Shown piece after piece: positions 16,348 to 20,409 of a stretch of DNA of 20,409 nucleotides. The stretch is from a virus. Position numbers and translations under genes: made by a program. The notes beneath the pieces are model-generated. The model saw only the letters and a program-made list of their open reading frames with translations, had not been told where the DNA came from and ran no database searches. Location: positions 1 through 20,409 of IMG/VR virus record IMGVR_UViG_3300048919_000420; one strand, written 5' to 3'. The stretch's first letter is position 1, and each line of letters begins with the position of its first letter.

Positions 16348-17296
16348 TGCCGCCCTCCCCGTTGCCCCGGCCGCCGCGCTGGCGCAGCAGCCGCTTAGCC
16401 TCCTCGATGGCGTCGAAGTTGGCGCTCGTCTTGTCGGCCGCCTGCGCTGCCGTGCCGGTCACGGCCTGGCCACGAGCCCACTGGGTGCGGAAGCTCTCGG
16501 CCTGGTTCACCAGCACGCCGACGCCGTGGGAGTTCTTCACCACGAATGCCTCGTTCACGCTGGCCACGTACCAAGCCGCCACCAGCGGTGCCTCTTCGAA
16601 GCCCAGGCGCTTGACCAGCGTCTTCACGTTGGCGTTCACGACCTGGTTGCGCACCGGCTTGACGCCATACCGCTGCTCGTAGGCCAGGCTGTACGACGCC
16701 CAGGTGAGCTTGCAGGCAGCCTGCAGGGCTGTCTCGCCGTCGTCTGGATCACCGCCAGCCCCATCGCGGGCCGACGGCGCAGCCGGCGGGGATGGTTCTT
16801 TGGCGGTTCCTTTACGGTTCCTATTACGGTTCAATGATGATTTGGGTGCGCCATCTGCACCCCTGGGGTGCGCCATCTGCGGGGGTTGAGGTGCGCCATT
16901 TGCACCCCCTGGTGCGCCAGCTGCGGGGGGTGGTGCGCCGTCTGCACCCGGTGCGCCATTTGCGGGGGGTGCGCCATTTGCACCCGGTGCGGCATCTGCA
17001 CCCGTACCACGCCTGCGCTTCGCAGGCGCTGCAGCCGGGTTGAAGTTGGCCGGAGTGATGGTGTAGCTGGTGCTCGAGTTGATGCGGTACTCACGGAACA
17101 CCACGCCAACAGTCTGCAGCCAGGCGATGGCATCCTGCACCGCGCGCTCGGACAGGCAGGTGCGCTTCGCAATCGTCGCAACACCGGGCCAGCACACGCC
17201 GTCATCGTTGGCCTGGTCAGCCAGGGAAATCAGCACAGCCTTCTGCGCGGGGGACATCGCCAGCGGCCAGCAGGCCGCCATGATCATCGTGCTCAT
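16340..17296 (-). CDS. Lambda-O-like replication initiator with repeat-encoded linker
   Basis: This 318-aa protein is expected to bind the phage origin and recruit the replisome. Residues about 10-80 form a HTH_36-type winged helix (AMSPAQKAVLISLADQAND, CWPGVATIAKRTCLSERAVQ, DAIAWLQTVGVVFREYR). A Gly/Ala/Pro linker (about residues 90-150) is made of GADGAP/GANGAP units. It is encoded by the 18-bp repeat array described separately, just as lambda's origin repeats lie in the middle of O. The C-terminal part (KLTWASYSLAYEQRYGVKP, FEEAPLVAAWYVASVNEAFV) is a helical domain probably for partner contact. Start ATG 17296 has AGGAGGG upstream and overlaps the Rha gene stop. Confidence 0.8.
   Translation of the reverse strand: MSTMIMAACWPLAMSPAQKAVLISLADQANDDGVCWPGVATIAKRTCLSERAVQDAIAWLQTVGVVFREYRINSSTSYTITPANFNPAAAPAKRRRGTGADAAPGANGAPPANGAPGADGAPPPAAGAPGGANGAPQPPQMAHPRGADGAPKSSLNRNRNRKGTAKEPSPPAAPSARDGAGGDPDDGETALQAACKLTWASYSLAYEQRYGVKPVRNQVVNANVKTLVKRLGFEEAPLVAAWYVASVNEAFVVKNSHGVGVLVNQAESFRTQWARGQAVTGTAAQAADKTSANFDAIEEAKRLLRQRGGRGNGEGGNA
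16804..16832. repeat. Three short AT-richer direct repeats beside the iterons
   Basis: CGGTTC recurs at 16804, 16815 and 16827, each followed by an AT-rich tail (CTTTA, CTATTA, AATGATGATTT). The 11-12 bp spacing resembles unwinding-element repeats of replication origins. They encode the NRNRNRK segment of the initiator, on the gene-3' side of the iterons, the same side as the AT-rich part of lambda ori. Confidence 0.5.
16845..17003. repeat. Eight 18-bp iterons, candidate origin of replication
   Basis: Consensus GGTGCGCCATCTGCACCC. Copies start at 16845, 16867, 16890, 16911, 16932, 16950, 16968 and 16986. Copies 2, 4 and 6 end in CGGGG, the others in CACCC; the latter are dyads with GGTGC/GCACC arms. 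Spacings are 22, 23, 21, 21, 18, 18 and 18. Copy 2 is read in a different frame (PQMAH instead of GADGAP) yet keeps the DNA sequence, so selection seems to act on DNA. Position in the initiator gene matches lambdoid origins. Confidence 0.75.
17011..17027. repeat. 7-bp perfect inverted repeat at the edge of the iteron array
   Basis: GCCTGCG-CTT-CGCAGGC lies 7 bases beyond the last iteron. It encodes the basic AKRRRG segment of the initiator, so codon constraint alone could produce part of it, but the perfect pairing next to the repeats suggests an origin element or a hairpin that could form when DNA is unwound. Confidence 0.4.
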
Positions 17297-18006
17297 TGCT
17301 GTGCGCCCTCCTGCGCCAGGCGGGCCTGGTGCTGGCCCCACAGGCCGGCAATCCAGGTCACGCCCTTGCTGGTGAACTTGGCCTGGGTGAAAGCGTGGTC
17401 GCTGTGCTGGGCATGGCCTGCCTTCACCACGAATCGGCCTGCGTCCAAGTGCTGGGCCAGCGGAGTCAGCCGGCCCCCCAGGTGGTACATCACCTTGTTG
17501 TCCAGAAGGAACGCGCGAAAGCGCTCCTCGTTCGCGCGCAGCAGCTTGCAGACCTGGCGGAAGCCCATGGCGCCGGTCTCGGCCGCCACGAAGCGATCCA
17601 CGAACTCCGCTTTGGGCGCAGCCAGGGCCAGCGCCTCGGCCGTGCGCAGCTCGGATTCCTTGGCATCGGCCCAGGCGCGCGCGGCGGCCACCGGGTTGGA
17701 GAAATCAGGCAGCGCGGGAGCGGCCTGGGCCTCCAGTTCCTGCCAGCGATCCACCAGGCGCGCAGTGAACTCAGGAGACAGCTGCGCCACCACGACATAG
17801 CTGTCACGTTTGCACAGTTGGTAGACGCTCACGGTTTGGCCGAGGTGGTTCCGAACTTCCTGCAACGCAGGGAGTTGGATCACGCCGCGCGCGCCCAGGC
17901 GCTCGATGGAGGTCTTCACGTTGTCGTGACGAGACTCCACCAAGGTGGCGATTTCTTCGCTGCTCATGGTCAGCACGGCGGCGGAAATTGCAGTGATCGC
18001 GTTCAT
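17293..18006 (-). CDS. Rha-family regulator with C-terminal KilAC antirepressor domain
   Basis: This 237-aa protein joins two known phage domains. Residues about 14-95 are Rha-like (MSSEEIATLVESRHDNVKTS, SVYQLCKRDSYVVVAQLSPE, FTARLVDRWQELE). From about 130 the KilAC/ANT domain follows (KAEFVDRFVAAETGAMGFRQ, VCKLLRANEERFRAFLL, FTSKGVTWIAGLW). Such proteins bind DNA or repressors and act in lytic switching or in countering the resident repressor. Start ATG 18006 has GGAGGG upstream and overlaps the preceding stop (ATGA). Its own target here is not known. It lies in the early operon under PR, so it would be made after derepression. Confidence 0.82.
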   Translation of the reverse strand: MNAITAISAAVLTMSSEEIATLVESRHDNVKTSIERLGARGVIQLPALQEVRNHLGQTVSVYQLCKRDSYVVVAQLSPEFTARLVDRWQELEAQAAPALPDFSNPVAAARAWADAKESELRTAEALALAAPKAEFVDRFVAAETGAMGFRQVCKLLRANEERFRAFLLDNKVMYHLGGRLTPLAQHLDAGRFVVKAGHAQHSDHAFTQAKFTSKGVTWIAGLWGQHQARLAQEGAQQ

Positions 18007-18434: not shown

Positions 18435-18869
18435 CTACTCCTTGGATGTGGTGACAGGTGGAGGGGAGTCGGGACGCCAGCGGTTGAGGCGGGACCAACC
18501 CAGCAGCCAGCTCAAAACAGGCCGACGCGAAGGTGGTGCTGTGGGCGCCACGGTGGCGCAGTCGGATGTGTGCCGCACCGTCAACGCATTCATTCCAGTG
18601 CGGGCCTGGTCTGCGATCGACTGCTGGAGGGCAGCCATCACCGCTTGCCGGTCCAGAAGCTGCGCTTTAGCGCCTTCCAGTTCTTCGCTGGCAAAGGAGG
18701 AGGCGTCATCGAGCCAGCGCGCCATCCTTTTCTCGCGGGCATCAGCGTTTGCCTCGATGTGGGCCAGCGTCGCCGAGCTCTCCTTGAGCAGCCGCCCGCT
18801 TCGGGCGATGGACATGCGCTTCTGGAACGGCAGCGGGCCAGGCCGCTTGGACTTGCGGGGGCTATGCAT
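18435..18869 (-). CDS. Coiled-coil early protein, unknown function
   Basis: This 144-aa product is read from ATG 18869 (AGGAG seven bases upstream), overlapping the Cro-like gene by 8 bases. A Lys/Arg-rich N-terminus (HSPRKSKRPGPLPFQKR) is followed by a continuous helix predicted as coiled coil (residues about 28-92: LLKESSATLAHIEANADARE, KRMARWLDDASSFASEELEG, AKAQLLDRQAVMAALQ). The C-terminus is Pro/Ser-rich with a short hydrophobic PVLSWLLGW patch that might touch the membrane. I do not recognise a family. It is the second gene behind PR. Confidence 0.55.
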   Translation of the reverse strand: MHSPRKSKRPGPLPFQKRMSIARSGRLLKESSATLAHIEANADAREKRMARWLDDASSFASEELEGAKAQLLDRQAVMAALQQSIADQARTGMNALTVRHTSDCATVAPTAPPSRRPVLSWLLGWSRLNRWRPDSPPPVTTSKE

Positions 18870-19125
18870 GGCCTGGCTCCTGGGGGCGTGCAGGAAGGGG
18901 AGGAACCGCTCGCGGAGGCAGCGCAGCGGCGCCATAGATGTGGTCGTAACTCAGGGCAAGACCAAACCCGCTTGCTGCGAAAGCAATGAGCTTCGTGGCC
19001 ATCTCCGGAGAGAACGTTTGGCCCTTCTCGTAGTGGTACACGTTGCCTTGCGTGCAGCCGATGCCTTCGCCCAAGGCCTTCTGAGAGATTCCGAGATGCT
19101 TTCGGATGCGTCGGAGGTTATGCAT
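18862..19125 (-). CDS. Cro-like HTH repressor, first gene of the early operon
   Basis: This 87-aa XRE/Cro-type protein has one HTH: LRRIRKHLGISQKALGEGIG, CTQGNVYHYEKGQ, FSPEMATKLIAFAA. It should bind the operators in the adjacent control region and oppose CI. I choose ATG 19125 and not ATG 19134: the earlier ATG overlaps the -10 box of PR, so it could not be in the transcript. From PR the expected first base is within one or two bases of ATG 19125, so the mRNA may be leaderless; no ribosome site is visible. The C-terminus is Pro-rich (LPPRAVPPLPARP). Its TAG overlaps the next start. Confidence 0.8.
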   Translation of the reverse strand: MHNLRRIRKHLGISQKALGEGIGCTQGNVYHYEKGQTFSPEMATKLIAFAASGFGLALSYDHIYGAAALPPRAVPPLPARPQEPGHA

Positions 19126-19132
19126 ACCCAAC

Positions 19133-19160
19133 ATACTAGCAGTGCTTGTAATTATGTCAA
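19133..19160 (-). promoter_or_regulatory. PR-like early promoter
   Basis: On the minus strand there is TTGACA (19155-19160), a 16-base spacer, then TAGTAT (19133-19138). The spacer and -10 carry operator O1, so repressor binding would block RNA polymerase. It drives the Cro-like gene and, through overlapping genes, the whole early operon. Confidence 0.75.
19135..19149. promoter_or_regulatory. Operator O1 (in PR)
   Basis: ACTAGCA-G-TGCTTGT is a near-perfect dyad (13 of 14 arm bases match ACAAGCA-N-TGCTTGT). The minus-strand form ACAAGCACTGCTAGTAT, including the -10, is identical over 17 bases to the PL operator at 20155-20171. Confidence 0.7.
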
Positions 19161-19173
19161 TAGCTCTGCTTTT
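19159..19173. promoter_or_regulatory. Operator O2, degenerate
   Basis: AATAGCT-C-TGCTTTT keeps 10 of 14 arm bases of the O1 consensus. Its centre is 24 bp from O1, about two helical turns, as expected for cooperative binding. It starts at the edge of the PR -35. Confidence 0.45.
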
Positions 19174-19193
19174 TGCTGATTTAGGGTAGTTTT

Positions 19194-19208
19194 ACTAGCC
19201 TCGCTATT
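19194..19208. promoter_or_regulatory. Possible operator O3 beside the cI start
   Basis: ACTAGCC-T-CGCTATT keeps 9 of 14 arm bases. It ends one base before the cI ATG and overlaps a weak promoter candidate (TTGCTG at 19173, 17-base spacer, TAGCCT at 19196), where it could mediate repression of cI. The match is poor, so this is tentative. Confidence 0.3.
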
Positions 19209-19209
19209 T

Positions 19210-19707
19210 ATGAGTGATGAGATCCGCAGAACCCTGACTGACGAGCACCGCGAGGAGTCGCGCAAGCTCAAGGCCTTGTGGGCAGAACGCAAAGACCGCG
19301 TGTCCCAGGCGGAGTTCGGTCAGGCTTATGACATCGGCAGCCAAGCGGCTGTAGGGCACTTCCTGAACGGTAAGGCCGCCATCAGCCTGAAGGCAGCACG
19401 GGGCTTTGCGAAAGGCCTTGGATGCGATATCGCAGACTTCAGCCCCAGACTGGCTAGCGAAGCCGCCTCACTAGGAGAGGTGGCCGGCGGTGGCAACCAG
19501 CCGCTGAACTTCACCCAGCTATCCAAAGACGAGATGCAACTGATCATGGTGTACCGGAGCGTCCCAAAATCGATCCAAGCCAAGTTGCTGGCCGATGCCG
19601 AGGGCCAACTCCGCCAGCTGCAGGCTGCAGCGGAGCGCCAAGCTGCGGCACCTCAGGCGGCAAAGCCGGCGACAGCTCGTCGTCGCGTGGCGGAGCACAC
19701 GGAGTAA
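19210..19707 (+). CDS. CI-like HTH repressor without self-cleavage domain
   Basis: This 165-aa protein lies divergent from the Cro-like gene, in the position of the lysogeny repressor. The HTH is at residues about 32-75 (VSQAEFGQAYDIGSQAAVGH, FLNGKAAISLKAARGFAKGL). The rest has a helical segment MVYRSVPKSIQAKLLADAEG, perhaps for dimerisation, and an Ala/Arg-rich tail. There is no S24/LexA-like peptidase domain (no cleavage Ala-Gly context, no Ser/Lys dyad region), so it should not be inactivated by RecA. No ribosome site precedes ATG 19210; the message may be leaderless. Its last 164 bases overlap the convergent HTH gene. Confidence 0.75.
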   Translation: MSDEIRRTLTDEHREESRKLKALWAERKDRVSQAEFGQAYDIGSQAAVGHFLNGKAAISLKAARGFAKGLGCDIADFSPRLASEAASLGEVAGGGNQPLNFTQLSKDEMQLIMVYRSVPKSIQAKLLADAEGQLRQLQAAAERQAAAPQAAKPATARRRVAEHTE

Positions 19708-19981
19708 CCCGCTCTTCTTGGGTCCCGGTGCCAGGCAAAAGGGCCTTCACGTTCAAGCGCTCGTAGTGCACCCCAAACAGAAGTTGATGTGCTGAAGCGC
19801 AATAAGCGGCAGCGAGATCAGCCACCTGGAGTGCTGTGGGCACGGTAAGTCCGGTCTCCCATGCGGAGACTGTCTGTCTCTTCACCCCCAGAAGCTCCGC
19901 TACATCGTCTTGGGATAGCTCGCAGTTTCGACGGGCGGCCCGCAACCGGTCGCCCAGTGCTCTTTTTCGTATTGGCATCAT
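19544..19981 (-). CDS. SOS-box-controlled HTH regulator, convergent with cI
   Basis: This 145-aa protein has a good XRE HTH (LGDRLRAARRNCELSQDDVA, ELLGVKRQTVSAWETGLTVP, TALQVADLAAAY) and ends its recognisable domain near residue 85 (SAHQLLFGVHYERLN). The remaining Pro-rich tail runs antisense into the cI 3' end and may be an overprinted extension. Start ATG 19981 (or 19978) has GAGG five bases upstream. Its promoter overlaps a LexA-type box, so it should be induced by DNA damage. In a phage whose CI lacks the cleavage domain, such a gene could act as antirepressor or competing regulator. That role is inference. Confidence 0.75.
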   Translation of the reverse strand: MMPIRKRALGDRLRAARRNCELSQDDVAELLGVKRQTVSAWETGLTVPTALQVADLAAAYCASAHQLLFGVHYERLNVKALLPGTGTQEERVTPCAPPRDDELSPALPPEVPQLGAPLQPAAGGVGPRHRPATWLGSILGRSGTP

Positions 19982-19996
19982 CGCGTCCTCGCGAAA

Positions 19997-20016
19997 TACT
20001 GTATTTGCATCCAGTA
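19997..20016. promoter_or_regulatory. LexA-type SOS box
   Basis: TACTGTATTTGCATCCAGTA matches the E. coli-type consensus TACTGTATATATATACAGTA at 16 of 20 positions and keeps the essential CTG-N10-CAG. Longer arms AATACTG/CAGTATT pair perfectly. It lies 16 bases before the HTH start codon and overlaps the -10. Confidence 0.78.
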
Positions 20017-20041
20017 TTCCTGATCGACTCCACTTTTGCAA
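20013..20041 (-). promoter_or_regulatory. Promoter of the SOS-controlled HTH gene
   Basis: On the minus strand TTGCAA (20036-20041), a 17-base spacer, then AATACT (20013-20018). The -10 is inside the LexA-type box, so LexA would block the promoter until DNA damage. Confidence 0.6.
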
Positions 20042-20043
20042 AT

Positions 20044-20058
20044 GCAAGCCATGCTTGC
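20044..20058. promoter_or_regulatory. Palindrome GCAAGC-CAT-GCTTGC (copy 1)
   Basis: A perfect 6+3+6 palindrome sits just upstream of the -35 of the SOS-controlled promoter. It differs from the CI/Cro operator, so it may bind the HTH protein encoded next to it, as activator or autoregulator. Confidence 0.5.
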
Positions 20059-20080
20059 GCAACGCTTGATTGCAGAACTC

Positions 20081-20095
20081 GCAAGCGTGGCTTGC
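20081..20095. promoter_or_regulatory. Palindrome GCAAGC-GTG-GCTTGC (copy 2)
   Basis: It has the same arms as copy 1 with a different centre; centre-to-centre distance is 37 bp. It lies between the SOS-controlled promoter and PL, so one protein bound here could affect both. Confidence 0.5.
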
Positions 20096-20129
20096 GGCGT
20101 TGAAATTTTTCCTCTACAGAAATCAAATT

Positions 20130-20144
20130 ACAAGCAGTGCTGTT
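20130..20144. promoter_or_regulatory. Operator O4 (upstream part of PL)
   Basis: ACAAGCA-G-TGCTGTT keeps 12 of 14 arm bases of the O1 consensus. Its left side with flank, AATTACAAGCA, is identical to the minus-strand sequence at PR. It touches the PL -35; centre 25 bp from O5. Confidence 0.65.
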
Positions 20145-20171
20145 GCAAAGAATAACAAGCACTGCTAGTAT
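20143..20171 (+). promoter_or_regulatory. PL-like promoter, rightward out of the window
   Basis: TTGCAA (20143-20148), a 17-base spacer, then TAGTAT (20166-20171), the same -10 as PR. Operators O4 and O5 flank and cover it. It would drive early genes to the right of this window. Confidence 0.65.
20155..20169. promoter_or_regulatory. Operator O5 (in PL)
   Basis: ACAAGCA-C-TGCTAGT keeps 13 of 14 arm bases. With the next two bases it forms a 17-mer identical to the PR operator/-10 in the same orientation relative to transcription. Confidence 0.7.
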
Positions 20172-20234
20172 TCGCTCTAACAACTCTTTGAACCGCGTAC
20201 GCGGCTCGGCAGGGAAGTTGGGCACCACGGCATC

Positions 20235-20256
20235 GACCGGGTAAGCCCCGGTCTTT
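20235..20256 (+). terminator. Hairpin followed by TTT in the PL leader
   Basis: GACCGGG-TAAGC-CCCGGTC is a perfect 7-bp stem with 5-base loop, then TTTC. It could be a weak terminator early in the PL transcript or an RNA signal for an antiterminator. Confidence 0.45.
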
Positions 20257-20280
20257 CACAAGTTGCACGCCGATGTTGCT

Positions 20281-20298
20281 TGCCCCACCCGAGGGGCA
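20281..20298 (+). other. Second hairpin in the PL leader
   Basis: TGCCCC-ACCCGA-GGGGCA forms a 6-bp GC-rich stem, followed only by TT. It is too short of U residues for a standard terminator. It is 27 bases after the first hairpin. Confidence 0.4.
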
Positions 20299-20409
20299 TT
20301 CGTCCGGCGCAATGGCGCTCCTGGGCATGGGCCAGGTCAGCGCGCCGCGTCTCCGCGCGGTTGCCAGTCCGTCAAAGCACGGTTCACGGCATAGGGAAGG
20401 AACTGCGGG

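Follow-up and report, generated by a model that had tools for sequence, protein, structure and literature searches.

How a temperate phage may leave lysogeny upon DNA damage, if its repressor carries no self-cleavage domain, is the question raised by the right end of the window, which is the whole stretch of DNA analyzed here, namely the 20,409-base IMG/VR fragment IMGVR_UViG_3300048919_000420. This end is organized as a lambda-like immunity region consisting of a cro-like gene, cI, an HTH gene, an operator pair and a PL-like promoter. The following features are located here:

17293-18006, minus strand: pRha/KilAC antirepressor-type gene of the early operon, downstream of cro (PF03374, PF09669; phrog_63, anti-repressor Ant)
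18862-19134, minus strand: Cro-like HTH gene (Pfam HTH_3, 4.3e-9)
19135-19149: OR1, putative CI/Cro operator over the PR -10, ACTAGCAGTGCTTGT
19159-19173: OR2, putative CI/Cro operator, AATAGCTCTGCTTTT (operator-matrix score 20.4)
19210-19707, plus strand: cI-type repressor gene, 165 aa, without Peptidase_S24 (weak HTH_3 match only in Pfam)
19544-19981, minus strand: XRE-type HTH gene, 145 aa (Pfam HTH_31, 7.8e-14, and HTH_3)
20130-20144: OL2, putative CI/Cro operator, ACAAGCAGTGCTGTT
20143-20171, plus strand: PL-like promoter predicted from sequence, TTGCAA-17-TAGTAT, directed out of the window
20155-20169: OL1, putative CI/Cro operator, ACAAGCACTGCTAGT

The putative CI operators are ACNAGCANTGCTNGT-like and lie at both ends of the region. 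In relatives, left-operon-like genes follow the PL-like promoter and their translations, judged by eye, resemble recombination genes.

According to Pfam, the CI of 165 aa does not contain the Peptidase_S24 domain of a lambda-type CI cleaved via RecA, and homologues of its N-domain found elsewhere carry S24. The dN/dS of CI outside the overlap with the HTH gene is 0.02-0.05. The predicted structure is all-helical at modest confidence (mean pLDDT 66.6), and a C-terminal domain at approximately residues 99-137 is common to other CIs paired with the HTH family described below.

The HTH ORF is considered to be a real gene, since its product matches Pfam and the dN/dS of its DNA-binding domain is low (0.07-0.09 against 70%-identical relatives, 0.17 against the closest relative). 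The core covers approximately residues 1-85 and is predicted by AlphaFold with a pLDDT of 85-96; the tail from about residue 86 on lies within the cI overlap, is predicted to be disordered and is relaxed, with a dN/dS of 0.55-0.66 against the 70%-identical relatives. Weak matches aside, Pfam and PHROGs assign the protein to HTH and regulator families only. A fold search with the model gave generic XRE domains (P22 c2, C.AhdI, DdrO), none with E < 0.001, and tblastn against described phages and plasmids likewise gave generic XRE proteins only; three of these matches turned out on inspection to be ordinary repressors or an XRE protein beside an ImmA/IrrE gene.

Upstream of the HTH gene a LexA (SOS) box and a putative promoter are present:

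19997-20016, minus strand: LexA (SOS) box, TACTGTATTTGCATCCAGTA, reading TACTGGATGCAAATACAGTA on the minus strand; 16/20 to consensus, core CTG-N10-CAG at 19999-20014
20013-20018, minus strand: predicted -10 of the HTH promoter, AATACT, under the SOS box and 17 nt from TTGCAA; similar geometry in relatives
20036-20041, minus strand: predicted -35 of the HTH promoter, TTGCAA; positions 20036-20043 invariant in six aligned relatives

The box was scored against the E. coli-type consensus TACTGTATATATATACAGTA and is located ~16 bp upstream of the ATG of the HTH gene (19981). It is kept in 8/8 IMG/VR relatives, with changes in both halves, and among six sequences 70% of its columns are invariant compared to 28-44% in the stretches separating the features. 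When the whole window was simulated 300 times with a Markov-1 model, the best CTG-N10-CAG score was 14, obtained twice. This simulated maximum together with the conservation rules out that the box is a chance match. Both hexamers of the promoter are weak (4/6 each), which explains why it is missing from a plain consensus scan; distant relatives display a similar promoter spacing and a TGTG-N-AATACTG-like -10. Furthermore, a umuDC operon with a 17/20 LexA box, CTGTATATTCATACAG, is found on the contig of G001, the closest relative (L072:1194-2958), which indicates that the E. coli-type LexA box is in use in that DNA. The first-pass annotation had described a 16/20 box with intact CTG-N10-CAG over the -10, a CI without S24 peptidase and a convergent overlap of the HTH gene with cI. 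The box is borne out by sequence, simulation and conservation, the Pfam search agrees on CI, and the overlap amounts to 164 nt at 19544-19707.

Three GCAA-N7-TTGC sites at 20044-20095 directly precede the HTH -35, on the side facing PL:

20044-20058: palindrome A, GCAAGCCATGCTTGC, presumed operator of the HTH protein; 14/15 columns invariant, present family-wide
20059-20073: palindrome B, GCAACGCTTGATTGC; GCAA-N7-TTGC constant, center variable
20081-20095: palindrome C, GCAAGCGTGGCTTGC; GCAA-N7-TTGC

Invariant columns in the palindromes A, B, and C amount to 93%, 67%, and 80%, respectively (six sequences). High-scoring GCAA-N7-TTGC sites are confined to the HTH-promoter region in the relatives G001 (62.9 kb) and G002 (54.5 kb), and the HTH protein probably binds these palindromes of its own and thereby regulates itself. 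The sites are distinct from the CI operators and are retained throughout the family although the CI types change. Since they are kept while the DNA-binding domains of the CIs differ, a Cro-like competition at the CI operators is unlikely.

A genome scan with the alignment A1 of close relatives gave distant XRE proteins only; the wider family was reached via a related host genome located through CysM. The flanking CysM is 69.5% identical to a Caballeronia protein and identical to the CysM of genome G202. Members were identified by profile search in genomes of the related host family and genus as well as in IMG/VR, and we infer that the HTH family resides in Burkholderiales (pro)phages. Its core comprises ~90 aa with the signature CxCAHxLLFG. 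A CTG-N10-CAG box scoring 13-18/20 is present at most 60 bp before the ATG in 21/21 distinct members, and one to four 15-bp GCAA-N7-TTGC palindromes lie upstream of the box in 20/21, compared to 1/512 and 6/512, respectively, for a background of 512 other ORFs of the same loci, whereby the counts of family members are not independent due to their common ancestry. Both box and palindromes persist at a protein identity of ~33-50%. L114 and L115, two XRE look-alikes devoid of the CAHxLLFG signature, carry none of these elements. With a 16/20 box over the predicted -10 in the window and a box in every distinct member, the gene is a candidate member of the SOS (LexA) regulon, and we strongly infer from these comparisons that LexA controls it.

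A short CI, which belongs to one of several types, adjoins the HTH gene on the opposite strand. Among the neighboring CIs for which the full reading frame is available, none showed S24 in Pfam or in a local S24 profile search, the latter covering 20 loci; L105 comprises only the end of CI, and L106 lay outside the S24 search. Conversely, twelve loci of S24-bearing CIs with related N-domains, as well as F116 and phi1, contain no member of the HTH family. In four further loci with a CI without S24 (L058, L059, L065, L066), neither the HTH gene of this family nor an SOS box is present within the DNA covered, so that the module cannot be predicted from the loss of S24 alone.

The paired CIs contain several different DNA-binding domains, and their operators, where these could be read, differ as well. 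Common to all of them except the L091/L107 type is a C-terminal stretch of ~38 residues with the consensus xDxTxLSKLExQLVLxFRxLP..., which was encountered exclusively where the HTH family is present. A reciprocal genome search using CI revealed the HTH gene beside 5/5 CIs with this C-domain, two of which were known from longer stretches, and beside 0/4 without it. No match to the C-domain was obtained in the PDB or, using one query, in described phages. As the HTH-proximal end of cI encodes the C-domain, a recombination inside cI would leave both together, and part of the linkage could reflect physical neighborhood. The link nevertheless holds at a separation of 1-6 kb (L092, L103, L104, L131).

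The box, the gene, the overlap, the repeated sites, their conservation, the pairing and the absence of S24 are read from the sequence itself. On this ground we favor, with somewhat better than even confidence, a LexA-controlled induction module that acts on an uncleavable repressor via an XRE protein. As the HTH gene is always located beside an S24-less CI and is apparently repressed by LexA, it probably wakes the dormant phage after DNA damage. In the lysogen, host LexA would sit on the SOS box over the -10 and keep the HTH gene off, while CI would occupy OR and OL. Upon DNA damage LexA would be cut and the HTH protein made, which would then probably bind its upstream palindromes and relieve the repression by CI, most likely by contacting the shared short C-terminal domain. 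A module of this kind presupposes that LexA binds the box, that DNA damage switches the gene on, and that the HTH protein attaches to the palindromes and acts on CI. The evidence that the HTH protein antagonizes CI is indirect and consists in the constant pairing with S24-less CIs, nearly all of which carry the C-domain. A contact with the C-domain is the economical reading, since the CIs vary in their DNA-binding domains and, where read, in their operators, whereas HTH protein, palindromes and C-domain are constant; the one CI type without the C-domain (L091/L107) counts against it.

Overall, CI may be disabled by contact with its C-domain, by activation from the HTH operators or by convergent transcription. 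Concerning the second route, the HTH protein could be an SOS-released activator, which acts from the palindromes on the PL-like promoter or on a second gene following the logic of TF-small ORF modules, so that CI would be antagonized only indirectly. The conserved palindromes between HTH promoter and PL in the window fit to this, and inducing modules composed of an XRE regulator and a small ORF have been described (PMC10432266). Furthermore, roughly half of the more distant loci (L092, L104, L105, L108, L130-L134) carry a member of a small ORF family directly after the HTH gene. Examples of these ORFs of ~70-90 aa, which are LTPEQ..ITLGG-like and have almost no match in Pfam or PHROGs, are:

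L104:3289-3561, small ORF family
L131:5673-5930, small ORF family
L133:5720-5965, small ORF family
L092:8155-8636, small ORF family

On the other hand, the palindromes lie closest to the promoter of the HTH gene itself, and the link to the CI C-domain is better explained by a contact with CI. An HMM search for the small ORF family found no homologue in the window or in the available DNA of its close relatives, which speaks against a partner of this family in the clade of the window; an unrelated small ORF may exist there. Taken together, an activator appears rather unlikely. Where the extra small ORF is present, it could be the true antirepressor; in the window clade it is absent.

In the third route, the effector would be transcription itself: a LexA-controlled promoter firing against cI would act by interference and antisense RNA, and its transcript might continue across OR into cro and the early operon, both encoded on the strand of the HTH gene. 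This would operate independently of the CI type, and it is favored by the convergent overlap of 164 nt. In addition, no terminator on the HTH strand was found from the HTH gene to cro (minus strand, window 19000-20409), and in L094 none was found on that strand from the HTH gene to cI. It does not account for the strong purifying selection on the HTH protein, and in L104 the HTH gene is located ~1.8 kb from cI with terminator-like sites in between, which indicates that transcriptional interference is not general. As the sole explanation we regard this as improbable. Within the clade of the window interference is possible, where transcription from the HTH promoter would converge into cI and may lower the synthesis of CI. 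A role outside induction, as an accessory (moron) gene that responds to damage and controls for example the umuDC repair genes, is suggested for the HTH gene by L092, where it heads a gene run including umuDC, but is very improbable given its constant place beside S24-less CIs and its absence beside S24 CIs.

In L092 (7861-10393) two small ORFs and umuDC come after the HTH family gene with its SOS box, all in one orientation; in the window, umuDC was not seen after the HTH gene.

An induction module in which an XRE protein may contact CI can be compared with known systems. Gifsy of Salmonella (GfoA/GftA), 186 (Tum) and N15 (AntC) use LexA-controlled antirepressors for induction (PMC3121763), and the best reading by analogy is that the HTH module would be functionally like Tum of 186, AntC of N15 and GfoA of Gifsy. 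A repressor without self-cleavage domain, as expected for this class, is present. In GfoA/GftA, too, a small LexA-controlled protein acts on a short repressor lacking a cleavage domain (PMC3121763). However, the gene of GfoA/GftA lies outside the immunity region (PMC3121763), whereas the HTH gene has cI on one side and OL on the other; its product is set apart from GfoA/GftA by its description as an XRE DNA-binding protein with palindromes of its own. Tum contains a DinI-like half (PMC3121763), in contrast to the XRE domain with CxCAHxLLFG, which by description separates the family from Tum and AntC.

In TF-smORF modules, a phage XRE regulator is tied to CI inactivation in an SOS-independent manner and the small ORF is counter-oriented (PMC10432266). 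The XRE regulator is shared with these modules and some of the present loci also possess a small ORF, but SOS control is predicted here from the box, and the small ORF, if there is one, has the same orientation as the HTH gene; in the window and its close relatives, the HMM search places no member of the small ORF family beside the regulator. The HTH family therefore resembles the LexA-controlled antirepressors in logic and the TF-smORF modules partly in components.

Pseudomonas phage F116 (Hollowayvirus), whose terminase is related (68% identity), also contains an SOS box before a small gene convergent with cI; in contrast to the window, its CI carries Peptidase_S24 and the small gene encodes DUF1654 instead of an XRE protein. 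Here (L084, 17720-18019), the box TACTGTATGGATATACAGCT lies ~14 bp before gene 28 (DUF1654), convergent with the S24-type CI, so that a related named phage has an apparently SOS-controlled gene at the equivalent place. Separately, a strong SOS box, CTGTATTTTTATACAG, is located at L076:10842 of the relative G004.

The first-pass annotation had interpreted the HTH protein as a possible LexA-released antagonist of a CI without cleavage domain. The comparative evidence strongly supports LexA control and the missing self-cleavage domain; the three palindromes, the operators and the CI C-domain had been overlooked. It had also called the layout unfamiliar from described phages. The same layout is present in other prophages, some of which carry an additional small ORF or umuDC downstream of the HTH gene. 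A full-text literature search, with most subscription journals outside its scope, yielded no description of the HTH family.

Tentatively, the module may be regarded as a cassette of several Burkholderiales prophages, which combines uncleavable repressors, with exchangeable DNA-binding domains and a common docking C-domain, with a LexA-controlled, self-regulated XRE protein. The latter would act in two ways, on DNA by regulating its own promoter and on CI as the antirepressor that recognizes the docking domain, so that induction would be kept while the immunity specificity changes.

If true, this module would account for the response of temperate phages to DNA damage in cases where the repressor cannot be cleaved; for this bacterial order, no such system was found in the literature searched. 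The combination of box, palindromes, HTH signature and CI C-domain provides a search handle for further members. Furthermore, a simple and testable account would be given of how immunity specificity, residing in the DNA-binding domain of CI, can change while the induction circuit stays.
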